Origin: a virus
Strand: one strand, 5' to 3'
Length of the DNA: 35,408 nucleotides
IMG/VR virus record: IMGVR_UViG_3300037427_003262
Coordinates: 1-35,408 of that record
Shown: positions 4,716-35,408 of the stretch, piece by piece
How positions within the stretch are numbered: position 1 is the first letter of the stretch
How the letters are laid out: each line of letters starts with the position of its first letter
Notes under the pieces: generated by a model
The model's input: only the letters and a program-made list of their open reading frames with translations
Told to the model about the DNA's origin: nothing
The model's database searches: none
Program-made: the position numbers and the translations under genes

Positions 4716-4793
4716 GTTTAAGAGCAATGCTCAAATGAGGTTGTTCGGCGGATGCCCAACTTGGGGTTCGTAACTAAAATAGGAAAAAATAAA

Positions 4794-12624: not shown

Positions 12625-12625
12625 C

Positions 12626-14602
12626 ATGGCAGACGGAATCGACAACCCAGTCAAAACTACATCAAGAGATATAAACTATCTTGGCAAAGATTTCAACGCA
12701 TTCAGGCAAAACTTGATAAATTATGCGAAATCATATTTTCCACAAACATACAAGGACTTTAGTGAAAACTCCACGGGTATGATGTTTATTGAAATGGCAA
12801 GTTATGTTGGTGATGTTTTGTCGTATTATATAGACTATCAATTCAAGGAGGGTTTTATACAACACGCAGAAGAACGTAAAAATGTAGTAACACTTGCAAA
12901 TTATCTTGGATATACTCCCAAACCGGTTACATCTGCATCTACCGAACTTGAGGTCTTTCAACTTGTACCTGCAAAGACAAATCCCACAACCGGTGAGGTT
13001 GAACCAGATTACAAGTTTGCATTGAACATCTCAGCTGGTATGGAGGTCACATCGGCCGATGCAACACCAATTGTATTCAGAACACTGGATTCGGTAAATT
13101 TCACCGAAAACTCCGAATCAAATCCAATAAATGTTTCTGTGTTTGATAGAGACCCAACTACACAAGAACCGACATTTTATTTGCTGAAAAAGGTCACGAT
13201 GGTTTCTGCCGGAACATTGAAGACTCGGGAAATTTCCGTATCAACGGCAGAACCCTTCTATGAAATTGAGTTGATAGAACCAAATGTCCTTGAGATAGTT
13301 TCTATTAAAGATTCAAACGGGAATCAATATTACCATGTCCCAAATCTTGCACAAGACACGATTTTTGTAGAAGAACAAAATACAGATGCCAGAAATCCAT
13401 TCTATAGTAAGTTTTCAGAAACCGCACCATACGTGTTGAGGTTGATACGAACTTCAAGAAGATACATAACCAGGGTTAATTCCGATAACACGATGACAAT
13501 TGAGTTTGGTGCAGGAACCGACAAAATGGATGATGAGGTGATAATCCCTAACTTAAATAATGTGGGGAGATTGTTAAGCACACAACAGAGTTTTGAGGTT
13601 GCATATGATCCATCCAATTTTTTGAAAACTAAAAGTTATGGTGAAGCACCCTCAAATACAACACTTACTGTACAATATTATGTTGGTGGTGGTATATCAT
13701 CAAACGTATCATCAAATACACTAAACAACATATCACTTATAAACTTTGAAGATCAAAGTGAATACCTAACTGCACAGGAATCTACTATATTAAACACAAT
13801 TAGAAGTAGTATCCGAGTTAATAACCCAGACCCCGCACTTGGTGGAAAAAATGCAGAGTCAACTGACGAGATTCGGTTAAATTCTCTTGCATACTTTTCT
13901 GCCCAAAACCGAGCAGTGACTCGGGAAGATTATGTTGTACGGGCATACTCTATGCCAAATAAATTTGGAAGTGTAGCAAAAGCATTTGTAACTCCAGATG
14001 GAATTTTAGATTCAATGACTCAGTTATCATTGATAAAGTCACTCGATGAACAACCCACAAAGGTGAGTCCAAGTGGACTCACTCAGGTATATGGAGAGGT
14101 AAACAATCCGTTTGCAGTTAATATGTATGTATTGAGTTATGATAAAGATAAGCATTTAGTTTCTCCCAACGAACTTATATTGAAAAATCTTAGAACATAC
14201 TTGGGTCAATATAAGATGCTCACGGATGGAGTAAACATAACCAATGCGTTTATTATAAATGTCGGAGTTGACCTTGAAATCTCGGTGTTTCAAAACTACA
14301 ACAAGATTGACGTTTTAGCAAGTGCAATTCAGTCTGTGAAAAAATTCTTTGACATTGATAGGTGGCAAATTTCCCAACCAATTGAAATGGGTGACCTTGA
14401 ACTTGAGATTGCAAAAATAAATGGAGTTAAGTCGGTTACTAATTTACGAGTTTATAATAAAACTATTGAGGACGGAAACTATTCATCTAATGTATATGAT
14501 ATGGAATCTGCAACTTTTAATAAAGTTGTATACCCTTCAATGGACCCGTCTATATTTGAATTGAAATTCCCATCACGGGATATTGTGGGGAGGGTTGTGT
14601 AG
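12626..14602 (+). CDS. gp6: Baseplate wedge protein gp6-like (baseplate J family)
   Basis: 658 residues, very close to T4 gp6 length. The N-terminal region (DINYLGKDFNAFRQNLINYAKSYFP and FSENSTGMMFIEMASYVGDVLSYYIDY, about residues 15-73) is a hallmark of gp6-like wedge proteins in T4-type phages. The C-terminal third (about 400-560), with NRAVTREDYVVRAYSMP, matches the baseplate-J core. In the particle, dimers of this protein form the ring that joins the wedges around the hub. It directly follows gp25 and its stop shares a base with the next start (TAGTG). Confidence 0.9.
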   Translation: MADGIDNPVKTTSRDINYLGKDFNAFRQNLINYAKSYFPQTYKDFSENSTGMMFIEMASYVGDVLSYYIDYQFKEGFIQHAEERKNVVTLANYLGYTPKPVTSASTELEVFQLVPAKTNPTTGEVEPDYKFALNISAGMEVTSADATPIVFRTLDSVNFTENSESNPINVSVFDRDPTTQEPTFYLLKKVTMVSAGTLKTREISVSTAEPFYEIELIEPNVLEIVSIKDSNGNQYYHVPNLAQDTIFVEEQNTDARNPFYSKFSETAPYVLRLIRTSRRYITRVNSDNTMTIEFGAGTDKMDDEVIIPNLNNVGRLLSTQQSFEVAYDPSNFLKTKSYGEAPSNTTLTVQYYVGGGISSNVSSNTLNNISLINFEDQSEYLTAQESTILNTIRSSIRVNNPDPALGGKNAESTDEIRLNSLAYFSAQNRAVTREDYVVRAYSMPNKFGSVAKAFVTPDGILDSMTQLSLIKSLDEQPTKVSPSGLTQVYGEVNNPFAVNMYVLSYDKDKHLVSPNELILKNLRTYLGQYKMLTDGVNITNAFIINVGVDLEISVFQNYNKIDVLASAIQSVKKFFDIDRWQISQPIEMGDLELEIAKINGVKSVTNLRVYNKTIEDGNYSSNVYDMESATFNKVVYPSMDPSIFELKFPSRDIVGRVV

Positions 14603-16540: not shown

Positions 16541-16559
16541 TATCTGAGTTTAATTGGTT

Positions 16560-19500
16560 ATGAAAAAATATCATAAATATGTAAAGGAGGCCCCGACTAA
16601 TATGGATTTTGATTATCCACGTGGGTCTCCCGTGGATGCATCCATGTTTGACATACTAACAGGTGACTCACCTGAACAAGCACCACTGGAGTTTGGTAGG
16701 TCTCCGAAAGATATAATTGAATTTTCTGTATATACCCAAGAAAACGAAGTCTTACAATCCAAGTTAATTGATAGGGATGATAGTTTTTTAGAACGCAAAT
16801 ACGACTTTATCGACTATAATGGTGAACACCGAATGGGCACGTTACATACGTTTGACAGGAATTACCAAGTTTCTGAATCGGGTGACGTGATTATATCACC
16901 CACACACGAACTTAGTGAACTCGGATATACAGACGGAACACATAAAATTGGTGTCTCTTTTAGAAACGATATTATTGGATCTGCTGAATCAACTGCAAAG
17001 TTGATGGTAGTTGGTATATCACCCTCTCGGATGGAAGTCAAGATTGTCCCATCTGGACTAAAGACATCCAAGAAACCACTGGAGGTGTCTTTAAACTTTG
17101 AATATGATAATTTTTTCAACAAACGATTGTTGGTTGCCAACATATACAACGAAACATTTAAGTTTATTCGTACCGAGGGTTTGCCTGCATATATCAACCG
17201 AGTTATAGAGGACAACGAGATAGAGGGGTATCACGATTCAGTTTTACAGATAGTTGAGTTATTTGGTATGAGTTCACACCAAGATTTTATCAAAGATTGT
17301 AGTGGATTACATGAACAAATTACATCTCTGTATTTCAATATTATGTTGTGGAAGTACAATGATGTATTTTCGGAAAGTGATTTCGCAAGAGAATATGTGA
17401 GGTGTGTGGATAGAATACTTGATACAAGTTCAAGATTTTCCAATAAAGATAGAGATGAATCTTTAATAGAACCACATGACATATACAGAAAGACCTTGTT
17501 GGCACAATATAACTCCAAACGAGTAACCGATATATATAATGCCAAATTTACATCATATTTTTCAAATGTATTGAATTTTTCCGATGGGTCTATAGTACCG
17601 TTCGTTAATGTTGTTCGTGGAACAGAGAATGCCGATGATTCACGGAAGCACCGTCCGTTGGTGGTAAAGTTGATAGATCCACTTCCTACTGACGTGTCAG
17701 TTGGACAAAAATTGCATATGTCGAACGTAGCTTACTCGGACGATATAATACAGACAACCGTTTTATATAAACGATCAAAACCAGAATTGTATAAAATGCG
17801 TGGGCCGAATATGTCGTTTACTTCACCCGGGGGTTCTGCACAATATACACTTGAAAAACTCGAAAGCACAAAGCACGAACAAAATAGAAATGCGTTACTT
17901 GACTCCGAGGATGAATTAACAGACTCGTTGAAGGAACGACTTTCCGACATTGAGCAGGAGTGGAGGGAGGAGTTATACGGAACACCATTACAAATATCCG
18001 ATGAGATTTCGAGATATTTCCAGTCAAACATCGAGGATACATATTTAACTACCGACTATTCTGATTTTTCAAAGTTTGTTAGGTATTCTTCGGCAAGAAA
18101 ACGACTAGATGTTTTTATATATAAACTAGCAAAGATATCGGAGTTTGACCGGCAGATGGAAAGTATTCGTCGTGCATGGAGAACATCCACGGCGGAACAA
18201 TTCGGCAGGATGTCATATGATGACCAAATGCAGAAACTGCGTACTGAGAAGAATAAAATGCTTAGTGGGTTCGATGGGTATGAGAGATTTTTGTATTTTG
18301 AGGATATTGTACAATTAACAGAGACTGCAAAAGACTTACAAGACCAGATTGATAAGATAACTCTGTCAATGGAACGTAGAGGAGAAACTGTATCTGAACT
18401 TGAGCAAATTGCTGACTTGGAACGCAGATTGACATATGTGTATGTTAGTTGGCCAAGGCAGGATTTTGAATGTGATAGTGTGGATGATTGGTCTGAGAAT
18501 GTTTCTGATTATGTATATGGTGAAGCAGTGATGTATGATGATTCGGTTTGGATAGTATCGGAAAACGCAACTCCACAACCAACTGACATACCAGGAACAA
18601 CAAACGCATGGCAGTTTTTTTGTAAATGTGGGGAGTGTGTTGGTAAAAAAATTCCAATGACCACATCATCGTATACATTTTTATCCGCACGAACATATTA
18701 TAGACCAGAACCAATTCCACCTACAATGGAGGAGTTTTCCAAAAGTCAGGCATACTCTTGGTATTCTTTGAAGGCCAAGGAAGCAGACTTTTACGATAAG
18801 CACAATGACAACTCAATGTTGAGCAACACCCCTGAGTTTATAACCAGAGATGATGATAATTCTGATTATTTTGATTTTTTGAACTTCATCGGACATCAAT
18901 TTGATTTGATTCATTTATATGTCGAGGGAATTGGTTCTATAAAACAACCCCTAAACAATCCAGATAAGGGTATTCCAAATGAGATGGTATCTCATATGTT
19001 AAATTATTTTGGAGGTGGGTTTGTTGGGTATGATGATGGTGAGGTAAGTGCATTGATGAACCAAGTAACTACGAAGTCACACATTGAGTTCATTAATAAA
19101 TTCAAAGAGAGAAAGAATATAATCTGGAGACGAATATTAAATAATCTTCCACAGATGTTAAAGGCGGTGGGAACGGAGCAATCTGTCCGAATCATGTTTA
19201 GATGTTATGGTGTACCTGATTATTTGTTCAGAATTAGAGAGTTTGGTGGTGTTGAATATAACACCGACTTGAGTGACGAGGCAGTTTATAGTTTTGACAC
19301 ATTTGACTATTATTTGAATATCTCTGGGGGCAATCAATATGTGGAGTTGGATTGGGGGAATTCATCGTATGATATTAATACACTTGAGTTTAGATTTGGA
19401 TTTGCCGAACATGGCATTGATGTTGAAAGCAACCCACATATAGTAGTTGCGTCATCTCCTGGAAAGTGGGAATTTGGATATGAACCGTCCGAGGAGAACT

Positions 19501-22500
19501 TGGAACAGATATACGGTAGGTTTTACTTTTCCATACATGATGCAAGTGGAACACCCACAAAAACATATTTTAGAGACACACACACTGGAAGTGAGTGGGT
19601 TCATCCATTTAAGGGATCGTTATATGATATATTAATAAGAAGGCAATCAGGTGAGTTGGATACGGAGAGACGTGGGTTGCAACTATATGCTAAACGGGTT
19701 GAGCAATATGAGGTGGTGTATAATTCATATGCAGAAATATCAACAACTGATCATGCGTATAAAATGTTTCACGATAAGTCAACGTCATCTACAATTACAT
19801 TTGGAAACTACACTCATTCAAACTTTGCCGGGAGGATTGACAGATTACGCATATACCAACACGTATTACCAGAGCATAGATTTGAAAACCATATATTATT
19901 TAATCAATCATATGATACGGATGATCCAACAACCATTGATGAGACACTAATCTTCAAAGCAAATTTTGACTACCCATACGACCTAAGAAGTTCGGGTGAG
20001 AACAACTACGGTATCATCGAAAACACCGCATTCAGACAAGACGCACCTCAATCCGCCCGTTGCTACAATTTTGTCAAGGGTGACTATCCGTATGACTTTT
20101 CTGGTGAACCCGTTAGGCATTATTCCAAACTTCCATCGTATGGTTCTCAGGTATTCAATAATAATAAAATTAGATTGGAAACACAAGAACTTATAACACA
20201 ATTGTCGGTGTCGGACAGGTCAACACTAAAGAGTAATGATAGACTAACCGCAGATACGAATACGGTGGGGGTGTATTTCAGTTCAAGTGATTTGATAAAT
20301 CACGAAATAATACGATTTTTCGGAAATTTTAAATTGGGTGATTATATCGGAAATCCAGATGATTTGTACAAAAGTGTTTATGGAGAATTTGATGCGTTGA
20401 GGCATACTTTTTATAAGCATGGTTTCGGCAAGTTGGACTTTTCTACATATCTGAATGTAGTTGAATCGTATGTCGACCCATCGTTATTTGACAATATAAA
20501 GAAACTTGTTCCGGCAAGAACCCGATTAATTTCAGGCCTCGTAGTTGAACCAACATTGTTGGAACGACCTAAATTAAAAAGACGTCCACTGCAAAATGAG
20601 ATTATCAAACTTGATGATATTAATTTCAACCTAAAACCGGATTGTTCCAATCTAGTATCACCGGCAAACCGAAGGCACTATGTAAATCCCACCGACCAGA
20701 GTGAACTAACGGGTTATGATTTTAACGCAGTTCATTCGGCGAGGGTATCCAACTGGTATCCAACGGAGTATAATATGAACTCGGTTAGAGATATACCAAA
20801 TGAACTTATGTACGGAATCAGTGCATATCAAGGCACATCATCTGGGTATAAAATAGAAACACTTTCACCAACATACTCACGATACAATGTAAGTCGTGAT
20901 TCTGGTAGAACATATGGTGCGATAAAGATGAGTGGCACTATAATAGAAGGATCTACATTCAATTGTGTTATGTATGGTCGTTTTGGTTCTGCAATTAAAA
21001 CTAAAAATTATATCAAGAAGTTTGTCGGTTGGATTCATCGTGACACAACTATAAATGGTGAGATTCCAACTATTGTGGGTGGGTATGGTGCAAACGGATT
21101 TGCCAAATTTTCATATGTTTTTAATGGTCATCGTGTGGTCGGTAAGTTACAGGGTGACTTCGTAGGACAGATGCAGGAAGGGACGGTTAGGAAACTACAA
21201 GTTCTTGGAAAATTCGGTGGACAGATATATGACGAATGTTCATCGGAGTATATATCAGGAACTATACTAAGTGATTTAATCGAAGGTTTTAAATTTAATA
21301 AATCTGCCAATATGACCGGACAGGATAACCGAACATCTATACAGGTGGTGGAAACCAAGTTTACAGACGGTGATATTAACGCAGTGGAGTTACCCAAGAC
21401 CATACGGAAGAAAGTTCCGATTGAAATTGAGTATGATGTAACATATAAATTGCAAAATGTCGATTCTGGTGTATCAAGGGTTTCCGGAAATTATGATGGA
21501 ACACTTTCACTGGATATCTCTGCGGTTTTTATACCACCTGATGTAGTAACATATCATGTTGAGTGGGAACGTGGCAGGGTTATCGTGGATGAAAACGGCA
21601 TGAACGTGTTTGATAGTGTGGAAACTTTACTTAACATACAACGTTCGTCACATGACTATGTGCATAATATTAAACGTAAAGAGTATGATGTAAATCAACT
21701 AGTTTCATCCGATGATCTTATATTGAAACCCAAATATGTTTCGGATGTAAATGTTGACAGAAAGTCGGAGCAGGAAAACATATTGAATAGTTTGAAGAAT
21801 CGTGCGTGTGATTCTTCCAAACTTTCCAAATATATCGAAACACTCAAAACGTTGGAGAACATATCCGTCAGATATGAATTGACCGGAGACGCATTCATGA
21901 ATGGGTATGACGGACACACATTCTACGTGTCGGTCAAACCTCCTGTACACCTCAAGGTCGGGGACCGTGTATATATGCAGGGGGTTGTTATGCAATATGA
22001 CAATTGTGAATATACTGCCGATTATATAGACTTTAATGATGCTTATTATACAATAACAAAGGTATCACACAATGATTCTACTGGTAATGTTGATATCGAA
22101 TTCCCACACGAAAAGACGAACTTTTCCACTGAGTGTGGTGGGACATATGCATACGGTGGGAGTATTGGAATGGCACCCGAACTGTCAAATATAACAGACG
22201 AGGTCTATGATATTGGTGTATATGAAATGTTTTATGATTATGATATACCTTTTAATTTTATTCAAAAACTTCGCACACCTGTGGTGGATACAAACGAAGA
22301 TGGTGTATATGATACTCTCCGTGATGATATACCATTGTCAATTTCATGTGAAAATGGAGAGTTTAGTGCAAGGTGGGTAGACAATACACAGACAGATTCT
22401 TCTGGAAGTAAATTAACCGGAGAGATTAAACTTGGATTTTCCGATGATCCTGATGTTCGGGGAGTGAAGAAGCAAACTGCATCGGAATGGTATTTTGGAA

Positions 22501-24341
22501 ACGATATTAACACGGAAGACGGGTTACCCGACCAAACTTGCAATGACATTTATAGATTGAAGATTAGTGTGAATGTAAGTAGACCTGAACGGGTGGTTAC
22601 AAAACCAATGATAATTGATGAGAATATTAGTATTGGTGATGTGGTGGAGGTGGTATTCCGTAAGGGTTCATATTTATGGCATCCGTCCACAAAGGGACTT
22701 GAGGTGTCAACTGGGATTGTTACCAACTTGGAGTCAGACAAAGATGCCAACATGACGATATCGGTAAAGAATTCAACAGGGGTCGTGGATTCATTTCCAT
22801 TAAATGAAACTCATGTATATAGTGTGCGAATAGTTACCTCAAGTGATACAACATCCACAAAGGAGATACCATTTTCGGATAAATATTCAGAGACACTGCG
22901 TGGTACATCTCCTGATGAGCAACGATATTATCCAGACAAGGATTCGGTCACACTTCCCATTAAGATTAAAAGTTCGTCATTTGTGGTTGTTGAGAAACCA
23001 TATGAGTTTTATAATATAGTTGATATAGGAAACCCAAACTTTAAGATATGGGATGGAAGGTTTCCACAACACAAGGGATTGCATAGGAATGTTTTTTCAA
23101 AGACCAACAAACGCAGAGGAAACTTATATTGTAGACGATCAGTTAGTTCCGTCAATACTACAGTAAGTGGTGATACTGGTTCACCAGATTATACACCACC
23201 GATTGTGCGTACACGAAAAACTGCAATACAAGATTCAGTTGGGGATTCTTTTTGGTATCTTGATGATACACCAGTTACACAACCTGTGGGGTGTGGTATT
23301 GAAGGCCATTCATCGCAACAAATACCCACATCACCCTGCGACATACCTCCAACAGAAACTGAAACGCAGACCGATGTGGATGTGTCTGCAACCGACCCAC
23401 TTGAATTAGAATCATTGATGTTACACTACACATTTGAATCAGACCCAACTACTAATATCGTAGAGGATTCTTCCGGTAATGGCAGAACTGGGACATTGCA
23501 CAACTCCATAATTCGTGATGGTGGAGTTTCCCGAAGATATAGGAAAATTTTGGAACTCGACAACGATGTGCATACTGATCCAGATAACACACAGAGTTAT
23601 CTCGGTGTGAACAACATACCATTTAGCACATCGGCACTAACCATTGGGTTTTGGATTAGACCGGTTGGGGTTAGTGCTGATGATGTGGGTATAATACTAA
23701 ACAACTCGGCCGAACCCAATTCACGTCATGGTATAATAATGAACCCCAACGGGAATCAATATGCACTTGGATATTCGTGGAATGATAATGAAAATTCTCA
23801 TAATGTTGATTTGGGTGCTAATTTAGTACATGATTCGTGGAGTTATGTGGTAATATTATTATATCCAGGTGGATTTGTACGAACGTTTATCAATAACTGG
23901 TTTATATCAAATTATGATCTTGGTGTGAGGCATGAGAATGTTTCGTTTGATAACCTAGAGGTGGGTAGATTTTCTGGAATGATAGATGATATTAGGATAT
24001 ATAACGAGATACTCGATTATGGTAATGTTCCACTTGCAAAGGAAGCAACGGGTACGGTTGCGAGACTATACAACTCCACCCGACAACCACCACAGAACAC
24101 CACACATGATCCGGAGTATTGTGATTTACACCAATACGATTTCAGATATTATCAACATCCAGATTTCATAATTGCAAATAAAATGTATGATTTGCACCCC
24201 GGAAGTGACCCCGTATCTGATCCGGAAGTAGAGTCAAAGAGAAAATTTGATATACGGGGTGGTGCAAATGATGGACAAAAACGCAACGCAACTACTGAAT
24301 TTATGGGGAGATTGTGTGGAAGTCTCAAAGAGATCAGTTGA
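16560..24341 (+). CDS. Giant tail/baseplate protein with two LamG-like domains (gp7-like position)
   Basis: 2593 residues from the ATG at 16560 (a TTG at 16554 is the other option). The N-terminal 600 residues are mixed, with coiled-coil stretches. Residues about 725-900 contain DYFDFLNFIGHQFDLIHLYVEG, NLPQMLKAVGTEQSVRIMFRCYGVP and RIREFGG, which I recognise as a pattern of large wedge/gp7-like and tail proteins of T4-type marine phages. Residues about 918-1105 look like a LamG/concanavalin-like jelly roll (FAGRIDRLRIYQHVLP closes it). About 1315-1350 carries DNIKKLVPARTRLISGLVVEP, typical of the same group. A second LamG-like domain spans about 2286-2486 (MLHYTFES, SSGNGRTGTL, IDDIRIYNE). 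LamG folds bind glycans, so it probably both builds the baseplate and contacts the host. Its position after gp6 fits gp7. Confidence 0.6.
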   Translation: MKKYHKYVKEAPTNMDFDYPRGSPVDASMFDILTGDSPEQAPLEFGRSPKDIIEFSVYTQENEVLQSKLIDRDDSFLERKYDFIDYNGEHRMGTLHTFDRNYQVSESGDVIISPTHELSELGYTDGTHKIGVSFRNDIIGSAESTAKLMVVGISPSRMEVKIVPSGLKTSKKPLEVSLNFEYDNFFNKRLLVANIYNETFKFIRTEGLPAYINRVIEDNEIEGYHDSVLQIVELFGMSSHQDFIKDCSGLHEQITSLYFNIMLWKYNDVFSESDFAREYVRCVDRILDTSSRFSNKDRDESLIEPHDIYRKTLLAQYNSKRVTDIYNAKFTSYFSNVLNFSDGSIVPFVNVVRGTENADDSRKHRPLVVKLIDPLPTDVSVGQKLHMSNVAYSDDIIQTTVLYKRSKPELYKMRGPNMSFTSPGGSAQYTLEKLESTKHEQNRNALLDSEDELTDSLKERLSDIEQEWREELYGTPLQISDEISRYFQSNIEDTYLTTDYSDFSKFVRYSSARKRLDVFIYKLAKISEFDRQMESIRRAWRTSTAEQFGRMSYDDQMQKLRTEKNKMLSGFDGYERFLYFEDIVQLTETAKDLQDQIDKITLSMERRGETVSELEQIADLERRLTYVYVSWPRQDFECDSVDDWSENVSDYVYGEAVMYDDSVWIVSENATPQPTDIPGTTNAWQFFCKCGECVGKKIPMTTSSYTFLSARTYYRPEPIPPTMEEFSKSQAYSWYSLKAKEADFYDKHNDNSMLSNTPEFITRDDDNSDYFDFLNFIGHQFDLIHLYVEGIGSIKQPLNNPDKGIPNEMVSHMLNYFGGGFVGYDDGEVSALMNQVTTKSHIEFINKFKERKNIIWRRILNNLPQMLKAVGTEQSVRIMFRCYGVPDYLFRIREFGGVEYNTDLSDEAVYSFDTFDYYLNISGGNQYVELDWGNSSYDINTLEFRFGFAEHGIDVESNPHIVVASSPGKWEFGYEPSEENLEQIYGRFYFSIHDASGTPTKTYFRDTHTGSEWVHPFKGSLYDILIRRQSGELDTERRGLQLYAKRVEQYEVVYNSYAEISTTDHAYKMFHDKSTSSTITFGNYTHSNFAGRIDRLRIYQHVLPEHRFENHILFNQSYDTDDPTTIDETLIFKANFDYPYDLRSSGENNYGIIENTAFRQDAPQSARCYNFVKGDYPYDFSGEPVRHYSKLPSYGSQVFNNNKIRLETQELITQLSVSDRSTLKSNDRLTADTNTVGVYFSSSDLINHEIIRFFGNFKLGDYIGNPDDLYKSVYGEFDALRHTFYKHGFGKLDFSTYLNVVESYVDPSLFDNIKKLVPARTRLISGLVVEPTLLERPKLKRRPLQNEIIKLDDINFNLKPDCSNLVSPANRRHYVNPTDQSELTGYDFNAVHSARVSNWYPTEYNMNSVRDIPNELMYGISAYQGTSSGYKIETLSPTYSRYNVSRDSGRTYGAIKMSGTIIEGSTFNCVMYGRFGSAIKTKNYIKKFVGWIHRDTTINGEIPTIVGGYGANGFAKFSYVFNGHRVVGKLQGDFVGQMQEGTVRKLQVLGKFGGQIYDECSSEYISGTILSDLIEGFKFNKSANMTGQDNRTSIQVVETKFTDGDINAVELPKTIRKKVPIEIEYDVTYKLQNVDSGVSRVSGNYDGTLSLDISAVFIPPDVVTYHVEWERGRVIVDENGMNVFDSVETLLNIQRSSHDYVHNIKRKEYDVNQLVSSDDLILKPKYVSDVNVDRKSEQENILNSLKNRACDSSKLSKYIETLKTLENISVRYELTGDAFMNGYDGHTFYVSVKPPVHLKVGDRVYMQGVVMQYDNCEYTADYIDFNDAYYTITKVSHNDSTGNVDIEFPHEKTNFSTECGGTYAYGGSIGMAPELSNITDEVYDIGVYEMFYDYDIPFNFIQKLRTPVVDTNEDGVYDTLRDDIPLSISCENGEFSARWVDNTQTDSSGSKLTGEIKLGFSDDPDVRGVKKQTASEWYFGNDINTEDGLPDQTCNDIYRLKISVNVSRPERVVTKPMIIDENISIGDVVEVVFRKGSYLWHPSTKGLEVSTGIVTNLESDKDANMTISVKNSTGVVDSFPLNETHVYSVRIVTSSDTTSTKEIPFSDKYSETLRGTSPDEQRYYPDKDSVTLPIKIKSSSFVVVEKPYEFYNIVDIGNPNFKIWDGRFPQHKGLHRNVFSKTNKRRGNLYCRRSVSSVNTTVSGDTGSPDYTPPIVRTRKTAIQDSVGDSFWYLDDTPVTQPVGCGIEGHSSQQIPTSPCDIPPTETETQTDVDVSATDPLELESLMLHYTFESDPTTNIVEDSSGNGRTGTLHNSIIRDGGVSRRYRKILELDNDVHTDPDNTQSYLGVNNIPFSTSALTIGFWIRPVGVSADDVGIILNNSAEPNSRHGIIMNPNGNQYALGYSWNDNENSHNVDLGANLVHDSWSYVVILLYPGGFVRTFINNWFISNYDLGVRHENVSFDNLEVGRFSGMIDDIRIYNEILDYGNVPLAKEATGTVARLYNSTRQPPQNTTHDPEYCDLHQYDFRYYQHPDFIIANKMYDLHPGSDPVSDPEVESKRKFDIRGGANDGQKRNATTEFMGRLCGSLKEIS

Positions 24342-26639: not shown

Positions 26640-29600
26640 ATGATAAAACCACTACGGAGCTCAGATAAAATTGTCCGACCGTTTAAGACATTTAAGTCAT
26701 GGTCATATAAAAATACCGATCTATCGGATGTTATACTACTTGAGCATCTATATTACAGTACCATTGAGGGTGGAATGGTGGGTGAACCACCTTTACAAAC
26801 AAAAGTGCAGATAGAAGGTCAATGGTCGGAGTATTTTAGTGGCATAGAGTATGACATAAATCAATATACAGACGGTGGGGTGGGTTATATTGAAATATTG
26901 ACTGGTGATGTTGAACCTGTAATTGTTGCGAAATATCGTGAGGGTAACATATCAAACTCATTATTATATGAAAGTGGTAATGGTGCATCACCAGAGACAC
27001 ATGAGACCAACTTTGGTGAATTTGATCTTGTTGTAAAGCATGGTGAAAAAATAACCGGACCATTTTATCCAGTGGGTCACCGAAAATATAACAAAGAACG
27101 TGAACCAATGAACTACGATGGTTCATATCATAGAGTGGTGTATAACACCATAAAGCATTTATTCTATAATGATTATTTTGTAAGTCATTATGACTATAAT
27201 TCAAATAAAGAATTGGATATAAAAAATCCACATATGTTGTTTGGGGTGGAGAGTGCAGAATATCACGATCCAACTGTGTTGGACGATATTGACACAGGTG
27301 AATCATACACAAATAGACGAATAGAGAGACGTGTGATTGGTGATTCTATAAAAGTTCTTGAGATTTCAAGAAAACATTTTGGGGAAAAGATCAGACCAAA
27401 CTCCGTGAAGATAGTTGATTACAGTTCCGAGTTTGAGATAATAAACATAGTTGATGATGGGTATACAAATTTAATAACAACAGAAGGAACATTTGACAAT
27501 GTTCATAGAGTTGGTGTAACTTGGGCAGATCGAATTCTTGCATATGGAAAACCAGAACAATTATTCGATCCAACTGACTTTTCATTTGGAGAAAAGTTGG
27601 CGTCGAGTGGAATGTACTTTATCACCGGATGTCCAATGGAGTTTGATGAGTTATCCGAATCGCAGGCCGGAAGTGCATTTCTAAGCAAATACGACAAGAA
27701 CTCGGATTCATTTAAAACCATACGACCCTTTGCGTGTCCATTTACTCAAAACGGTCTGTCACTAGAGCAACGACATGATCACAACAATGTATTGTTAAGA
27801 CAGGTTGGTGATGTGGTACTTTCAAATGATTATTCATTGAATGACAATTTTGGAAATGCAGTTGAACTCACGGATTCATATTGTGCAATCGGTGCATCAA
27901 GGGCTCACATAAGGGGAGAGTCAGCTGAATCTCCCACCGGATATGCTTTTATATACGAAAGAAACAAGGGAGGGAATGATAATTGGGGTATGGTAAATAT
28001 CCTTGAAGGCCTACCTGGTTCTGAATTTGGTGCGTCAATATCTATCAGTGATGATATGATGGCAGTAGGTGCTCCTGGGGTATCTAATGGTTCTGGTGTG
28101 GTATATATTTTTAAACGAGAGTCTAGAACAATCAATAGTCCCTGGAACAGGATAACCGACGTGCCTGACGGATACACATGGCAATCAGAAACCAAAACAT
28201 TTGAAGGATATCCACATGGTCACGAACTTGAGGAGTTGAACCAATCAACCACACGTTGGAAAGTCAAATCAGTTATTCCAGATGGAAGCATATTAAATTG
28301 CTTCGTTGGTATAGGAACATTTGAGATTGAAGATGGGGCAGAAACAACTTCGGATATAGAATGTATGTGTGGGGTCTCAACCTTTGGTGGTGATGACATA
28401 ATTACACATGGCACTGTCAGGGAATCCGATGATGAATTTGATGCTGGATATAAACCACATACATATACCAAAAGTCCACAACAATCAATCGGGGACACAA
28501 ACTGGGTATTGGACTCGTATGTAGTGTTGGACAATTCTGAGAATTGTTCTATGTTTGGAGAGGAGGTTAAGTTGGTTGGCAATCGTTTATATGTATCCAC
28601 ACCATCATCCAAAACACAAACTTGCCATATATTTGAACGAACCCACTCCGAGTGTGACGGAATTGTGTGGACGGAGACTCATAACATAACCAGAGACAGA
28701 GTTCTTAACAAGTTATCAGGTGAGTATGTAGAACCGACACTTCCGAGTCGTGAATCTATGGTTAGTTTCCCATACGAGTATTCCGAACCAACATCACATA
28801 AATATGGAACATCAATAGATGCAAATGAAATGTACTTGGTAATTGGTGACTCGATGGATCGGGAATATTCAACGTCGGGGGACACATATACTTCTGGTGC
28901 CGTGTATGTATACCGAATTTCTGATGATATTGAGTTTGATTCTAAGTTATACGGAGAGTCCAGAATCGAAACACGATTTACATCCAAGTTTGGTCACTCC
29001 GTGTCTATTTTTGAAAATGACATTTTAATCGGATCTTATTGTCCAGATGTGAGCAAAATTGAAGTGAAGGACTCGACGATATATGTCGATGATTATTACA
29101 CGGGAACAAATGTATTGTCAGAGGAGACATATTACCACGGGTCTGAAATCAGGAATGCTATTGAGGGTGAGGCATTTTATTATAGACTCTCGTCCGATGC
29201 AGACCCGGAACTTCTCAAAAAAGTGAAGATGAATAAGAAAAAAAATTCGGTCAGACGTCAATATGCATACTCGGTATCGTTGAGCTCGGATTATATGTAT
29301 GTAGGGCTTCCCGTCATCGGAAGTTTCCCCTTCTCAGAACTATCCACATTTGATGGACATGACATGGCCACAGAATGTAGACCAAAAGAAAATCCACATG
29401 AGTCTAAAGTCCGTGAGGCACTGTTTATGTACTACGATAAGTTGAATGAGGTGGAATTGGAATCCGATGATAGAGACTTATCTGGAAATGTAATAGCATA
29501 TCGTGTAGACTCGGTGCGTGAAATGAAGAACCACCAGGTAGGTAACATTTTCTATAAAAATGGAATTGTTGTGATAACGGATGTTGCCAATCATCTGAAG

Positions 29601-30422
29601 AATATACTCAGTGGTTCATATAAAGATGGGTATGAGATAGATTTTGCTGGTACACACACTCTGTATGAGACAGAGATACTATGCACGGTAGAACCCAATG
29701 AATTTAATATGTCCACAAACCCAACTGCACTATTATCGGAGGATATTGTATATGATATTAATGGTGATGGTAAATTTGACATTTTGGATTTAATATTGAT
29801 ATATAAATTTTTAAAAGGACACACGGGTCCTTCATATGTATTTGATGACGAGGTGGCAGATGACGAGGTTCCCGGGGGAGTATCAGTTGAACAAGATACT
29901 ATGTGGCCAAATTCAGACATATTGTTAACCGAATCCGATGATGCGATTTTGATGTTTTTTGAGAGAGAGGCAGATAACTTGTCAGTTGGTGAATATAATA
30001 AAACACTTCCTGCACTGAAACGACTTAAGGATAATGGAGATTTTGATGTTGATGGTGATGGTATATCAGGTAGTGCCGATGCCAAACTAATAATTAGATA
30101 CTTCAAAGGAAACATCGGTCAAGATTTAACCCGTGGGTTGATAAATAAGAATTCAAAACGGAGGGTGTCTAGAGATATCGTTGAATTCCTGGACAAACGA
30201 ACCGGTAAGAGCAATGGAGTGGAGGTTTTACCTGAGTTTGAGAGATTTACTGATTTGGATAGGTTAATTTCGTGTGGAAAGTCTATGGACGCATTACATC
30301 CATATGTCACCACAATCGGTCTTTATAGTGGTCTTGACCTCATTGGTGTTGCAAAACTTGCAAAACCAACAAAGATAACACCAAGTTATCCAATAAATTT
30401 TTTAATAAAATATGATGGTTAA
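26640..30422 (+). CDS. Large virion adhesin-like protein: FG-GAP repeats plus dockerin-like region
   Basis: 1260 residues. The N-terminus (LRSSDKIVRPFK) and C-terminus (VTTIGLYSGLDLIGVAKLAKP) match the 502-residue neighbour. Between them, FG-GAP/integrin-type repeats recur at about residues 403, 462 (EFGASISISDDMMAVGAP, then GSGVVYIFKR), 637, 721 (YGTSIDANEMYLVIGDS, then SGAVYVYR), 784 (KFGHSVSIFENDILIGS) and 875, enough for a beta-propeller. Next come two calcium-loop repeats of dockerin type: DINGDGKFDILD plus helix (from 1039) and DVDGDGISGSAD plus helix (from 1136), about 75 residues apart rather than adjacent. FG-GAP propellers and dockerins mediate surface adhesion and protein docking in bacteria, so I infer a host-contact or fibre-docking role. 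A cohesin partner is not seen in this window. Confidence 0.65.
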   Translation: MIKPLRSSDKIVRPFKTFKSWSYKNTDLSDVILLEHLYYSTIEGGMVGEPPLQTKVQIEGQWSEYFSGIEYDINQYTDGGVGYIEILTGDVEPVIVAKYREGNISNSLLYESGNGASPETHETNFGEFDLVVKHGEKITGPFYPVGHRKYNKEREPMNYDGSYHRVVYNTIKHLFYNDYFVSHYDYNSNKELDIKNPHMLFGVESAEYHDPTVLDDIDTGESYTNRRIERRVIGDSIKVLEISRKHFGEKIRPNSVKIVDYSSEFEIINIVDDGYTNLITTEGTFDNVHRVGVTWADRILAYGKPEQLFDPTDFSFGEKLASSGMYFITGCPMEFDELSESQAGSAFLSKYDKNSDSFKTIRPFACPFTQNGLSLEQRHDHNNVLLRQVGDVVLSNDYSLNDNFGNAVELTDSYCAIGASRAHIRGESAESPTGYAFIYERNKGGNDNWGMVNILEGLPGSEFGASISISDDMMAVGAPGVSNGSGVVYIFKRESRTINSPWNRITDVPDGYTWQSETKTFEGYPHGHELEELNQSTTRWKVKSVIPDGSILNCFVGIGTFEIEDGAETTSDIECMCGVSTFGGDDIITHGTVRESDDEFDAGYKPHTYTKSPQQSIGDTNWVLDSYVVLDNSENCSMFGEEVKLVGNRLYVSTPSSKTQTCHIFERTHSECDGIVWTETHNITRDRVLNKLSGEYVEPTLPSRESMVSFPYEYSEPTSHKYGTSIDANEMYLVIGDSMDREYSTSGDTYTSGAVYVYRISDDIEFDSKLYGESRIETRFTSKFGHSVSIFENDILIGSYCPDVSKIEVKDSTIYVDDYYTGTNVLSEETYYHGSEIRNAIEGEAFYYRLSSDADPELLKKVKMNKKKNSVRRQYAYSVSLSSDYMYVGLPVIGSFPFSELSTFDGHDMATECRPKENPHESKVREALFMYYDKLNEVELESDDRDLSGNVIAYRVDSVREMKNHQVGNIFYKNGIVVITDVANHLKNILSGSYKDGYEIDFAGTHTLYETEILCTVEPNEFNMSTNPTALLSEDIVYDINGDGKFDILDLILIYKFLKGHTGPSYVFDDEVADDEVPGGVSVEQDTMWPNSDILLTESDDAILMFFEREADNLSVGEYNKTLPALKRLKDNGDFDVDGDGISGSADAKLIIRYFKGNIGQDLTRGLINKNSKRRVSRDIVEFLDKRTGKSNGVEVLPEFERFTDLDRLISCGKSMDALHPYVTTIGLYSGLDLIGVAKLAKPTKITPSYPINFLIKYDG

Positions 30423-31223: not shown

Positions 31224-31244
31224 GCATAACATAATAAGTTATGC
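31224..31244 (+). promoter_or_regulatory. Inverted repeat enclosing the resolvase start codon
   Basis: GCATAAC (31224-31230) and GTTATGC (31238-31244) are perfect 7-base arms around ATAATAA. The right arm contains the ATG at 31241. Two more flanking pairs (TT/AA) extend the stem with one mismatch. In mRNA this hairpin would bury the start codon; no Shine-Dalgarno sequence precedes it. A translational switch or a protein-binding operator are both possible. Confidence 0.35.
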
Positions 31245-31762
31245 AAAATAAATCCTACTGTCTAGGATTAGATGTAAGTTCAACTGTAGTCGGTTACTGT
31301 GTATCTAGTTCCAAAAACGATATATTAGAGGCCGGATATGTTGATATTCATAAAGAAAAGAGTATCAAGGATAAAGCACATAAGGTTGCTAATCACTTAG
31401 ACCCCCATTCATTTGATCCATCAATCGTAATTGTTGAAGACTCGTTGAGTGGATTTGGGGGTGGTAGAACAAGTCAACAAACTATCGTGAAACTCGCAAA
31501 GTGCAATGCGGTAATAAGTTATGTCATAGAAGCATTGTATGAAATTGACATTGACCATGTAAATGTATCAACATTACGAAAAGCAGTTTTTGGCAAAAGT
31601 CGTGAAAAGGGGGTGGATAGTAAACAATTCGTACGTGAACAACTTGAGAATATGCTTGATTTATCTGAATTTATTGTCTATAATAAGAGAAATAATTATG
31701 ATAAGAAGAACTATGATATGTTGGATGCCACTGTAGCATCTCTTTATCACTGGTATAAGTAG
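31241..31762 (+). CDS. RuvC-like Holliday junction resolvase
   Basis: 173 residues, the usual RuvC length. The RNase H-like fold motifs are present: GLDVSSTVVGY with Asp11, IVIVEDSL with Glu66, and a C-terminal YDMLDATVASLYHW with Asp159/Asp162. These give the four acidic metal ligands of RuvC. It would cut four-way junctions made during recombination-dependent replication or packaging, taking the role that endonuclease VII (gp49) has in T4. It starts a run of replication/recombination genes with 2-nt gaps or overlaps. The start codon lies in an inverted repeat. Confidence 0.8.
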   Translation: MQNKSYCLGLDVSSTVVGYCVSSSKNDILEAGYVDIHKEKSIKDKAHKVANHLDPHSFDPSIVIVEDSLSGFGGGRTSQQTIVKLAKCNAVISYVIEALYEIDIDHVNVSTLRKAVFGKSREKGVDSKQFVREQLENMLDLSEFIVYNKRNNYDKKNYDMLDATVASLYHWYK

Positions 31763-31764
31763 AA

Positions 31765-32691
31765 ATGGGGATTTCCGAGCAGAAATTGCTTACCTTGTTA
31801 CAAAAAGTTTTAGGTGAAGGTAAGATTGTCTCAAAAGATGAGGCAATGTTCATGTGTCCGTTTTCCCATCACCGAAAACCAAAACTAGCAGTAAATCTAA
31901 CCACGCAGTATTGGCAGAGTTGGATTGACACCAATGCCAAGGGACGAAGCATCTTTTCGTTATTCAAGAGGTTACAGGTTCCAAGTAATTATTTTGCGGA
32001 ACTTTCTAAGATTGTAAAACTTCCAAAGAATACAACATTGTCGGATACTGAGAAGCAATATGTTTCATTGCCATATGAGTTTAAAAGATTGACTGAAACC
32101 CATAAAGATTTTTCTTATACAAAAGCAATGAACTATTTGAAAAATCGTGGCATTGAATTGTATGATATTGAAAGATACGACATAGGATATTGTTCCGATG
32201 GAGATTATGCAGGTAGAATTATAGTTCCGTCACTTGACGAGAATAATAAATTAAATTATTTTATTGCAAGGGATTTCACAGGTACGGCGTACTTGAAATA
32301 CAAAAATCCTCCGGTGAGCAAGGATGTTGTTGTATTTGAAAGTCAGATTGACTATTCAGAACCTTTAGTATTATGTGAAGGAGTATTTGACGCAATTGCA
32401 ATAAGACGAAATGCAGTTGCACTCTTGGGTAAAAACATCCCAAGTAAATTAAAAATGAAAATGATTGAAAACAAAGTTTCCGAAGTTTATGTAGTTCTTG
32501 ACGAAGATGCGGTCAAGAATGCTATTTCAATTACCGAGACATTGTTAAGTGAGGACATCAAAGTTAGATTCGTTAAAATGGGGGATAAAGACGCAGCCGA
32601 TGTTGGTTTTCGTGGTATGACTGAAAAACTTAGAAATACACCTTTAATGGGATTTGACACTTTGATGAAACAAAAGTTATGCATGAGTTAG
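31765..32691 (+). CDS. DnaG/gp61-type DNA primase with degenerate zinc ribbon
   Basis: 308 residues. A zinc-ribbon-like N-terminus (31-61) reads CPFSHHRKPKLAVN, then YWQSWIDTNAKGRSIFSLF. The framework matches phage primases, but the usual second, third and fourth ligands appear as Ser34, Ser52 and Asp55. A TOPRIM domain follows, with LVLCEGVFDA (Glu205) and VYVVLDEDA (Asp246, Asp248), the metal-binding acidic residues. Between them, YDIERYDIGYCSDGDYAGRIIVPS (about 131-155) fits the primase RNA-polymerase-core N-terminal part. It would make RNA primers for lagging-strand synthesis with a helicase encoded elsewhere. It starts 2 nt after the resolvase stop and overlaps the next gene by 13 nt. 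Confidence 0.8.
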   Translation: MGISEQKLLTLLQKVLGEGKIVSKDEAMFMCPFSHHRKPKLAVNLTTQYWQSWIDTNAKGRSIFSLFKRLQVPSNYFAELSKIVKLPKNTTLSDTEKQYVSLPYEFKRLTETHKDFSYTKAMNYLKNRGIELYDIERYDIGYCSDGDYAGRIIVPSLDENNKLNYFIARDFTGTAYLKYKNPPVSKDVVVFESQIDYSEPLVLCEGVFDAIAIRRNAVALLGKNIPSKLKMKMIENKVSEVYVVLDEDAVKNAISITETLLSEDIKVRFVKMGDKDAADVGFRGMTEKLRNTPLMGFDTLMKQKLCMS

Positions 32692-33383
32692 AATCGAAGA
32701 TTAAAAAAGTTGAGAAGATATATCATGTATCGGATATTCATTTACGGAATGTAAAAAGACACAAAGAATACCGAAGTGTATTTGAAAACTTTTATAAACA
32801 AGTAAAAGAAGACGCACTTGAGAACGCAATAATTTTTATCGGTGGTGATGTTGCTCATGCAAAAACGGAGATGAGTCCAGAACTAGTTGCTGAGATTGCC
32901 GACTTTTTTAATAAGTGTGCGGAGATACACCCAACCGTATTGATTGCGGGAAACCACGATTGCAATCTAAATAACCCGGATAGGTTGGATGTATTGACTC
33001 CTATTGTTGATATGCTTGGGCATGATAATTTGTTCTACCTACGAGACACGGGAGTATACAAACTTGGAGATGTTGCAATCAGTGTATTTGGTATATTTGA
33101 AGACCCAAGTGAATATGTCCGTGGAAAAGACATAACCGATAAATCAATTACAACAAAGATTGCAGTTTATCACGGAGCAATTAAACGAAGTAGAACTGAT
33201 GTCGGGTATGTCATCGTGGGTGGTGATGTACCGATGTATATGTTTGACGGATATGATATGGTGATGCTTGGGGATATTCATAAACATCAAATTTTACAAG
33301 AGCATCATACCGAGGCATTGTATGTACCCGAGTCTAAGGCAGACAAATATGTACTTGATGGTTGGGAGGTCTGTGATGACTAA
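32679..33383 (+). CDS. gp47: SbcD/gp47 nuclease core, split from its C-terminal part
   Basis: 234 residues. All metallophosphoesterase motifs are present: DIH (19-21), GGD (55-57), GNHD (90-93), YHG (163-165) and GDIHKH (197-202). The catalytic domain of the Mre11/SbcD/gp47 family is thus intact. The protein ends about 30 residues after the last motif, whereas family members continue with a capping segment opening with a strand such as IVYSGSMIQQ. That missing segment is found 0.9 kb downstream at the start of the SbcC-like ORF (34301 onward). With gp46/SbcC it would form the DNA end-processing nuclease. The last codons contain the ribosome site (GGGAGG, 33364-33369) and start of the inserted glycosyltransferase gene. 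The two halves probably associate as separate chains. Confidence 0.85.
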   Translation: MHELESKIKKVEKIYHVSDIHLRNVKRHKEYRSVFENFYKQVKEDALENAIIFIGGDVAHAKTEMSPELVAEIADFFNKCAEIHPTVLIAGNHDCNLNNPDRLDVLTPIVDMLGHDNLFYLRDTGVYKLGDVAISVFGIFEDPSEYVRGKDITDKSITTKIAVYHGAIKRSRTDVGYVIVGGDVPMYMFDGYDMVMLGDIHKHQILQEHHTEALYVPESKADKYVLDGWEVCDD

Positions 33384-34311
33384 TATACTTATTAAGTGTA
33401 GGAACATCCATATAGGTGATGTGATTTTTTGCAGTAGTGTCGCAAAGAAATTAAAGCAGAGAAATCCAGAGTGCATTGTCCATTATGATATTAACTATCT
33501 TCAACCAATGGAGTTGCTTATTAATAATCCTTATATTGATGAGGTTTACTATAAGGAGAATGCAAACATAGATTACGATGTAGTTTATCAGATAATGAAT
33601 GACGATGTGTCTACATTGAGTCCATATGAATCTGCGGTTTCGCAATTTCAACGAATGTGTGGCATTGAAGATTACGACGATACCTTTGAAGTTTTCACGA
33701 ACCCACAACTTGATTATTCTATACAAAGAAGCATGGAGCAATTAACTGAGATAGGTGATTGGGATACAGACTTGATAAAAATAGGATACCAAGTCGATTG
33801 GGATCGAAAGAGTTTTCTGTTTACTGAAGAAGAATATTATCGTGCAGAGGGTGGTGAAGATGGAACTGGATACGGAAGTGGAAAACGAAATGTGTTTGAT
33901 ATAATAAACTGCATGGAGATTTCTCCCAAAGTCATGTTGTTTGCACTCGGACAAGATGAGAAAGTTTCTCAAAATTATCCAAGTTTGAATTCAACAAGCA
34001 AGTTTTCATTTACTGCAAGTCTTATTAAAAATTGCGACTATGTCATTGGCAACGAGGGGTGTCTTACAAATATATCGTCTGTACTTGGGACTAGGACGAT
34101 TATCACCACAGATTATATCTACCAAATGTTCGGCCCAAAAGGAATTCGTTGGCAACAACAGGGTGGTGATTTAAATAACTTGGAAACAAGAAAAGCATTT
34201 TTAGGACCCAACTCATACTTCCCAGAACAGGGTCACACCGAGTTAAGTCCGTTTTTGACAGATAACCAAGTCGGTGAAGAAATTTTAAGGATAGTGCTTA
34301 ATGGAAACTGA
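33376..34311 (+). CDS. Family-9 (heptosyltransferase-like) glycosyltransferase inside the split sbcD locus
   Basis: 311 residues from the ATG at 33376, chosen because GGGAGG sits 6 nt upstream. The longer frame back to 33268 only shadows the nuclease gene. The N-terminus, LIKCRNIHIGDVIFCSSVAKKLK, followed by PYIDEVYY near residue 54, fits a GT9/GT-B fold (x-x-x-GD-x-x-x-x-x-x-x-x-x-L-K; N-P-x-I-D). The C-terminal part, CDYVIGNEGCLTNISSVLGTRTI (about 220-242), matches the donor-binding segment of heptosyltransferases. These enzymes add sugars to LPS core; here it might modify host surface or phage glycans. It overlaps the genes on both sides (8 and 11 nt) and lies exactly where SbcD would be continuous, so it looks like an insertion that kept the operon's translation intact. 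Confidence 0.7.
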   Translation: MTNILIKCRNIHIGDVIFCSSVAKKLKQRNPECIVHYDINYLQPMELLINNPYIDEVYYKENANIDYDVVYQIMNDDVSTLSPYESAVSQFQRMCGIEDYDDTFEVFTNPQLDYSIQRSMEQLTEIGDWDTDLIKIGYQVDWDRKSFLFTEEEYYRAEGGEDGTGYGSGKRNVFDIINCMEISPKVMLFALGQDEKVSQNYPSLNSTSKFSFTASLIKNCDYVIGNEGCLTNISSVLGTRTIITTDYIYQMFGPKGIRWQQQGGDLNNLETRKAFLGPNSYFPEQGHTELSPFLTDNQVGEEILRIVLNGN

Positions 34312-35408
34312 AAACGAAACTAAAGAAAAATACGTAAAGGTACGGAGACTCAATCCCAGCAAACCAATCGTGGTTTATTCCGGGAGCATGATTCAACAAA
34401 ATCACGGAGAACTACCCCGTGGCCACGGATATGTCCTATGGGATGTAAAGAATCGTAAACCAAAGCACGTTGAAGTTCACAATGATTATGGGTATTATAC
34501 CATAGTTGTTCGTGATGGTGCGTGTGTGAGTGACTTAAGTTTATTGCCGAAAAAGGCAAGACTGCGTGTTAAGGTATTTAACACTACTGCCGCCGAGACC
34601 AAAACGATACTTGCGGATATTCGCAAACATACAAGCATCACAGATTTAAATGTTACGAGGTGTGACGCAATCTCAGAAGCAAAGAAGTTTAATAGAGATA
34701 ATCAATTCAACTTCGGTGATATTACACAAACCTCTGTGCAGAATGATTTAATTGAAGATTATTTGACTCGCAACTTTGTGGTAGATGAAGAGCAAATAAA
34801 AACTGCCCTTGATATTAACAAGGAAGTAAACGGAAAACTCACGATTAAGGAGATACTTAGAAACTGTATTTGGAAACCAAAGAAGTTTGAGTTTGGAAAT
34901 ATGTTCAGTTACGGAGAAGGTAATGTTATTGATTTCTCAAATCTGAAAAGTGTTATGGGTTTATTTGCTTCAAACGCATCTGGTAAAAGTTCTATAATGA
35001 GTGCATTGAGTTTTTGTTTGTTTGATAAATGTGACAGAGCATTCAAAGCATCTCATGTTCTAAACACAACCTGCACAGACTTTACGTGTAAACTGAATTT
35101 TGAAATAGAAGGTGTTGATTATTTTATTGAACGAGTTGCTAAGACCAAGAAGAACGGTGATGTAACTGTTACTGTTGAATTCTGGAAACTTGATGGCAAC
35201 GGAGACACACTTTCCTTGAATGGAGAAATGCGTTCCGGTACAAACGCAATCATCCGCGATCATGTTGGTTCATACGATGACTTTGTTTTGACTACACTTA
35301 GTTTGCAAAATAACAATTCTATTTTTATAGATAAAAGTCAGAGTGAACGGAAAGACCTGCTTGCTCAATTCATGGGAATTGATATATTTGATAGACTTCA
35401 TTCAACTG
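34301..35408 (+). CDS. gp46/47: SbcD C-terminal cap fused to SbcC/gp46 ATPase N-terminus, 3' end outside window
   Basis: 369 residues visible, open to the window end. Residues about 18-75 (NPSKPIVVYSGSMIQQNHG, then HGYVLWDV and VHNDYGYYTIVV) are the beginning of the SbcD/gp47 C-terminal cap that is missing from the nuclease at 32679-33383. The cap runs to about residue 175. From about 190 the SbcC/gp46 ABC ATPase starts, with FEFGNMFSYGEGNVIDF and the Walker A motif GLFASNASGKSS at about 220-231 (Lys229), then FCLFDKC. Near the end, LSLQNNNSIFIDKSQSERK (about 332-350) matches the Q-loop region of the family. The stem coiled coil and Walker B lie beyond the window. In T4, gp47 and gp46 are separate proteins. 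The start overlaps the glycosyltransferase stop by 11 nt; AAGG is 10 nt upstream. Confidence 0.85.
   Translation, partial: METENETKEKYVKVRRLNPSKPIVVYSGSMIQQNHGELPRGHGYVLWDVKNRKPKHVEVHNDYGYYTIVVRDGACVSDLSLLPKKARLRVKVFNTTAAETKTILADIRKHTSITDLNVTRCDAISEAKKFNRDNQFNFGDITQTSVQNDLIEDYLTRNFVVDEEQIKTALDINKEVNGKLTIKEILRNCIWKPKKFEFGNMFSYGEGNVIDFSNLKSVMGLFASNASGKSSIMSALSFCLFDKCDRAFKASHVLNTTCTDFTCKLNFEIEGVDYFIERVAKTKKNGDVTVTVEFWKLDGNGDTLSLNGEMRSGTNAIIRDHVGSYDDFVLTTLSLQNNNSIFIDKSQSERKDLLAQFMGIDIFDRLHST

Follow-up and report, generated by a model that had tools for sequence, protein, structure and literature searches.

The virus record IMGVR_UViG_3300037427_003262 of IMG/VR, a fragment of 35,408 nucleotides (nt) analyzed at its full length and here called the window, encodes an SbcD-SbcC (Mre11/Rad50) type nuclease in two pieces, with a predicted glycosyltransferase gene between them. 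The nuclease core is encoded up to its last conserved motif by one open reading frame (ORF), hereafter the N piece, and is resumed, together with the cap and the SbcC ATPase, in another, the C piece. This arrangement is real, conserved and not an artefact, and the gene set is no longer a single-chain Mre11/Rad50 fusion, though descended from that family. We hold with moderate confidence that a homing-endonuclease-type insertion made the fused gene into a functional two-piece nuclease, and that a gene of GT9 fold later replaced the endonuclease.

All features described here lie on the plus strand. The N piece (32679..33383, 234 amino acids (aa)) runs from the phosphoesterase core to motif V and the strand QILQ (Pfam Metallophos E=2.1e-8; PHROG SbcD E=1.2e-14), and its phosphoesterase motifs are located at 32730 (SDIH), 32841 (GGDVAH), 32949 (GNHD), 33168 (YHG) and 33270 (GDIH). 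Motif II thus reads GDxxH and motif V GDIH; both exchanges are present across the fused family too, and the same two, the latter with D replacing the first H of motif V, have been described in Mimivirus R555 (PMC3175470). The N piece overlaps the intervening gene (33376..34311, 311 aa from ATG) by 8 nt of stop and start, ATGACTAA (33376..33383), and this gene overlaps the C piece by 11 nt (34301..34311). The C piece (34301..35407, open at the contig end) comprises the last strands of the nuclease core, the cap, a linker and the N-terminal lobe of the SbcC ATPase, with both the SbcD (E=1.4e-5) and the SbcC (E=5.4e-17) families of PHROG matched by the same ORF, and a Walker A region, ASNASGKSS, at 34967..34993 (Pfam AAA_23 E=4.4e-10). 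A preliminary description of this DNA had reported the 234-residue nuclease ORF with five motifs, a GT9-like gene overlapping it by 8 nt and intact frames; each of these was reproduced, and the second overlap adds to them.

The PHROG SbcD profile is divided over the two nuclease ORFs, with positions 19-223 on the N piece and 225-375 on the third ORF, and fused relatives align through both. The stretch IVVYSGSMIQQ (34367..34399), earlier proposed as the continuation of SbcD, is genuinely so, as the profile resumes in the third ORF at position 225 and the fused relatives align across. Since the window is the complete fragment, the remainder of the third gene was read from relatives. In one of these, L002, the protein is 869 aa long and holds, past the point where the window ends at 35408, a zinc hook, a signature motif, Walker B and the C-terminal lobe of SbcC. 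Complete split C pieces numbered 31, all with the zinc hook CxxC and Walker B, and all but one (30/31) with Walker A and the signature motif; the phosphoesterase motifs are likewise intact in the split nuclease proteins. The N piece carries the motifs of an SbcD/Mre11 nuclease, and nuclease activity is predicted.

When the third ORF was used as a query against viral contigs, 80 loci were found. The 35 closest (79-94% identity) share the order of the window, i.e. nuclease piece, glycosyltransferase and cap-ATPase piece, and the order is complete in 34 more contigs, the contig of one locus (L026) starting within the glycosyltransferase gene. In all, this gene order was seen in 38 other viral contigs. 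The window being a metagenomic contig that ends within the third ORF, an assembly join at 33376 or 34301 had been named as a possible source of the pattern, but the same order in 34 other contigs, at N-piece protein identities of 64-95%, together with glycosyltransferase homologues lying between the two halves at 37 of 37 loci, makes such an artefact vanishingly improbable.

The other loci (50-55% identity) all but one consist of a single ORF, about 1040-1080 aa long where complete, in the order nuclease-cap-ATPase. After further searches, 197 out of 247 relative loci were fused and 49 split, some contigs contributing more than one locus. Both kinds of relative that the preliminary description had proposed to look for, i.e. 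those with an uninterrupted fused gene and those with the same gene in the gap, were thus found. In the fused proteins the uninterrupted stretch from GDIH to QQN is short and variable (24-31 aa). Examples are an unbroken 1203-aa ORF in a 735-kb uncultured phage and a 1066-aa protein of the cultured Microcystis phage Mel-JY01 (WWT39521.1, PP395634.1), encoded near a primase gene and annotated only as 'AAA domain containing protein'. The fused form is the older state, as the more distant relatives have SbcD-SbcC as a single fused protein. The fusion of the cap to SbcC, first taken as part of the oddity, is in itself known, as Mre11/Rad50 fusions were described in 2011 (Mimivirus R555) and reported to be abundant in aquatic viral metagenomes, where phage primases occur on the same scaffolds (PMC3175470). 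The split nuclease gene belongs to a family of uncultured phages, most of them probably aquatic.

The position of the break was located on a structure model of residues 1-560 of the fused relative L156 (mean predicted local distance difference test score (pLDDT) 81). This model matches Mre11:Rad50 structures (3tho_B, E=2e-14), showing, for the fused relative, the Mre11 fold including the cap. Past motif V it has a strand at 207-210 (QILQ), a turn at 211-219 and a strand at 220-223 (IIVY). The window N piece stops just past QILQ with an extra tail, EHHTEALYVPESKADKYVLDGWEVCDD (33300..33380), and the C piece starts with an added head, METENETKEKYVKVRRLNPSKP (34301..34366), followed by the conserved IVVYSGS, the strand whose counterpart pairs with QILQ in the model. 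Judged by this model, the break lies within the nuclease core, in the beta-hairpin turn shortly past phosphoesterase motif V, rather than at the border of nuclease and cap as previously outlined; what the C piece supplies is therefore the remaining core strands, the cap and the SbcC ATPase in full.

The same turn is split on four separate branches of the tree. In the window clade, a single clade with support 100/100, the glycosyltransferase gene occupies the gap. The L069 group has adjacent split ORFs with gaps of -4, -14 or +51 nt and no gene between them, and L168 has a 130-nt gap (L168:3871-4000) without a recognizable gene. The fourth branch is L357, the 484-kb huge phage LR756508.1, where a 305-aa gene (L357:2040-2957) follows the N piece with an overlap of 11 nt and precedes the C piece. 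Trees of the N part, the C part and both require at least three changes between fused and split forms, and four once L357 is included; the N-only and C-only trees agree. A single vertical origin of all splits was rejected by constraining them to one clade (delta lnL 461, p-AU 5e-46). Searches started from L168 and L055 found no additional split lineages. At another locus, L092, three in-frame stops, all TGA, lie between the N and the C piece (L092:3947-4000), and reading through TGA would give a 1124-aa open frame; an alternative genetic code was dismissed, as other long ORFs at the locus also end in TGA. The L168 gap is possibly the remnant of a lost insert, its best match to the L357 endonuclease-like gene not being significant.

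The protein of the L357 gene combines a TnsA-type domain at the N terminus (Pfam E=5.8e-6, just above the Pfam cutoff) with a zinc-finger region, and has a region in common with an HNH endonuclease family (PHROG E=3.5e-15). This is as expected of a free-standing homing endonuclease, with putative homing activity, and its presence at the same spot suggests how the split arose. For the C-terminal part of the protein, similarity was also found to an endonuclease of Bacillus phage Moonbeam and to gp4, the T4-like head completion protein of cyanophages (27.5%, E ~6e-5). The earlier proposal that a fused gene was split by insertion of a glycosyltransferase gene hence stands in its first half, an originally fused gene having been interrupted (197/247 loci fused); the glycosyltransferase need not be the cause, as splits of the same turn exist with no gene in between (L069 group, L168) or with one that is endonuclease-like (L357).

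A further link between the split lineages is the tail of the N piece. This addition of 25-30 residues is common to the split forms, clearly in three branches and weakly in the fourth, and is absent from the fused forms. Likeness was scored as z against shuffled columns, after removal of just the three core-strand residues, giving 8.5 for the window clade against L357, 8.5 for the L069 group against L357 and 4.4 for the window clade against the L069 group; the tail of L168 is less similar overall (z 2.5-4.7). Between the window N piece and that of L357 there is no alignment gap from motif V onward, across the tail and almost to the C terminus. In 21 phage records a tail profile had its confident matches at split nucleases only, and the fused records searched gave none. 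That the tail is a known domain or a general endonuclease-associated motif was rejected, since no convincing Pfam or PHROG match was found and the confident matches within these 21 records were confined to the split nuclease. Co-conversion of flanking sequence by a homing endonuclease would be expected to produce similar tails on separate branches, the alternative being convergence.

Such convergence, or constraint on a loop, is assumed by a rival explanation in which illegitimate recombination placed the glycosyltransferase gene directly in the fused gene, with no endonuclease involved and with the pieces still cooperating. This would suit a glycosyltransferase known at this site only, a window-clade split of single origin (100/100) and the lack of any observed endonuclease gene in that clade. 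It fits poorly with the likeness of the window tail to that of the endonuclease-bearing split (z=8.5 against L357), with the same turn being split elsewhere without any glycosyltransferase, and with a tail motif that has no match in the fused records searched; we regard it as fairly unlikely.

The intervening gene is predicted to have a GT-B fold of the GT9 heptosyltransferase type. Its AlphaFold2 model (pLDDT 84, predicted template modelling score 0.84) has as nearest solved structures in Foldseek the GT9 protein 3tov (E=7e-10, probability 1.00, TM-score only ~0.55), heptosyltransferase II 1psw and WaaC 2h1h, and residues I13-G14-D15 are invariant among the homologues. No Pfam GT9 match was obtained in 28 members at E<=0.1. 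All 37 homologue loci retrieved lie between the two nuclease pieces, with one copy per split record, and the gene is absent from 17 of 17 fused-relative records. As a source, a move from elsewhere in the genome or from bacteria was discarded: 23 records held no other copy, INPHARED gave no homologue at E<=0.01 and a pattern search gave none in GTDB contigs. A subtype found in L018, L019, L028, L036 and relatives is about 50% identical to the window glycosyltransferase and lacks the residues around 155-170; the flanking nuclease pieces of this group stay about 68-82% identical, which indicates a glycosyltransferase that evolves faster or has been exchanged.

All pieces are under purifying selection. 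Ratios of nonsynonymous to synonymous substitution rates (dN/dS; NG86, pairs with dS <2) are rough, many pairs being near saturation, and were ~0.09 for the N piece, ~0.20 for the glycosyltransferase and ~0.09 for the C piece; by part they were ~0.05 for the linker-ATPase, ~0.08 for the cap, ~0.18 for the tail and ~0.27 for the head. A second match to SbcD or SbcC was sought in six split records of 95-170 kb, possibly incomplete, where only the split pieces were found, so that a second intact SbcCD copy was rejected for these. Both junctions are stop/start overlaps throughout the window clade, with 8 nt between N piece and glycosyltransferase in nearly all members (nearest start taken) and 8-20 nt between glycosyltransferase and C piece in most. 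Shine-Dalgarno sites conserved across the clade were looked for and not found, and the overlapping stops and starts are, together with this, consistent with coupled translation.

On the grounds of intact motifs, purifying selection, the lack of another SbcD/SbcC copy and overlapping junctions, the two split proteins are predicted to come together as a single SbcCD-like machine. A nuclease working as two separately translated pieces, as first suggested, remains the natural prediction for an interrupted fused ancestor with all frames intact. Separately encoded pieces have been reported active in other phages, i.e. for NrdA of Aeh1 and gene 43 of phage 25 (PMC2988022). A split within a domain would usually inactivate an enzyme, and the break is inside the core, from which it could be argued that the pieces no longer cooperate, the N piece acting alone as a phosphoesterase and the C piece as an ATPase, or that the system is decaying. 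The N piece, however, lacks core strands that only the C piece supplies, the two are always neighbors with overlapping ORFs and intact motifs, no other SbcD/SbcC copy occurs in the six large split records, and purifying selection acts on both, most strongly on linker-ATPase (~0.05) and cap (~0.08); a loss of cooperation is in this light improbable.

It is still less probable, to the point of being a marginal option, that a continuous SbcD-SbcC chain is made by RNA or protein splicing that removes the glycosyltransferase region. Introns and inteins in conserved phage genes are known (PMC3322345, PMC11878797), but Rfam gave no intron match in the window, nor in the insert at permissive thresholds, and the tail and head have dN/dS <1 (0.18 and 0.27), like translated ends. 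A conventional intein is excluded, since each of the three ORFs is in a frame of its own and their stops and starts overlap. A group I or II intron or an intein was accordingly rejected, with no Rfam match and no single continuous frame.

The origin by endonuclease insertion that we favor would start from an ancestor with one fused SbcD-SbcC gene. A free-standing gene of the homing-endonuclease type would have inserted itself into the DNA for the hairpin turn past motif V, where one is still seen in LR756508.1. The nuclease would thereby have become two ORFs, to which a short tail and head were added. In the window clade a GT9-fold glycosyltransferase gene would then have taken the place of the endonuclease. 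The three overlapping ORFs are probably translated by coupled termination-reinitiation, and the two nuclease proteins are predicted to join through pairing of the strands on either side of the split hairpin turn. The N piece with all metal-binding motifs and the C piece with the last core strands, cap and ATPase would in this way form an ordinary SbcCD-like machine for recombination-dependent replication. Several observations weigh against this proposal. An endonuclease-like gene within the split was found in one phage only, with homing putative and L357 on a long branch, and no recognizable endonuclease remnant was seen in the empty splits. The head of the window clade shows no significant similarity to the heads of other lineages, among which those of L168 and the L069 group are close to each other, and the structure models cover single chains.

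A more far-reaching possibility, which we put forward tentatively and to which we give less credence than to the endonuclease insertion, is that the split junction (tail, gap and head) is a horizontally moving SbcD-SbcC allele with changing cargo, i.e. an endonuclease, nothing in two lineages, or a domesticated glycosyltransferase, and that tail and head form a clasp that makes the two-piece nuclease tolerable. If this is true, the selfish splitting of genes would be one way in which useful genes come to lie within replication genes.

The split gene is part of a replication and recombination cluster. A primase-like gene (31765..32691; PHROG DNA primase E=9.7e-37) lies directly upstream with a 13-nt overlap with the N piece, and a primase upstream of the nuclease gene is also found in the fused relatives L077 and Mel-JY01. 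A RuvC-like resolvase gene (31241..31762; PHROG RuvC-like E=1.8e-10) belongs to the same cluster. Elsewhere in the window are a second glycosyltransferase gene, GT2-like, at 2618-3976 (PHROG galactosyl transferase E=3.1e-8; Pfam GT2 below cutoff), and an Hsp20-like gene at 4752-5291 (PHROG E=9.7e-22), heat shock proteins being a described feature of aquatic 'moraphages' (PMC12619734). The largest ORF (2595 aa, 16554-24341) is close to T4-like baseplate genes (wedge subunits at 12235-14602). Another ORF of 1260 aa (26640-30422) contains FG-GAP repeats (Pfam E=1.1e-17), matches dockerin type I weakly (E=3.6e-4, just below cutoff), and is perhaps an adhesin or tail protein.

Compared with known systems, the window genes share with Mimivirus R555 and the aquatic virome fusions the domain order nuclease-cap-ATPase and the same two motif exchanges (PMC3175470), but here a break within the nuclease core has left two ORFs that flank a further gene; the text of PMC3175470 nowhere uses the word 'split'. 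Mel-JY01 has a fused-gene relative near a primase, its protein differing in being uninterrupted. The gp47/gp46 proteins of T4 and SbcD/SbcC of E. coli are the same enzyme parts in two proteins, with the boundary between Mre11 and Rad50, whereas here it falls within the Mre11 core and cap and ATPase form one chain. With GT9 glycosyltransferases (WaaC, 3tov) the intervening gene shares the predicted fold and a conserved G-D pair near the N terminus, but it lacks a Pfam GT9 sequence match and was found at no other location in the collections searched.

The closest parallels are phage genes in pieces, i.e. nrdA of Aeromonas phage Aeh1, split by mobE, the T4 topoisomerase, split by mobA, and gene 43 of phages 25 and 44RR (PMC2988022), in which a phage replication gene is likewise split into two ORFs by an intervening gene or sequence. 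As in these, intact homologues exist and a gene sits at the break in the window clade; the intervening gene is not a homing endonuclease, an endonuclease-like gene being seen only in L357. The target here is SbcD-SbcC, the cargo is a glycosyltransferase, and one turn has been split repeatedly with different or no cargo. The arrangement was thus rightly called unfamiliar only in part: functional reassembly after splitting is a known class (PMC2988022), and the SbcD-SbcC target and the glycosyltransferase cargo appear to be new, no description of a split SbcD-SbcC with an intervening glycosyltransferase having been found in the open-licence literature searched. SbcD-SbcC thereby joins the short list of phage replication enzymes encoded in pieces, cut in the nuclease core and with a metabolic gene intervening instead of an endonuclease, and its fused forms and its splits with an endonuclease-like gene, with a glycosyltransferase or with nothing between make up a natural series for studying gene splitting, retained function and cargo exchange.

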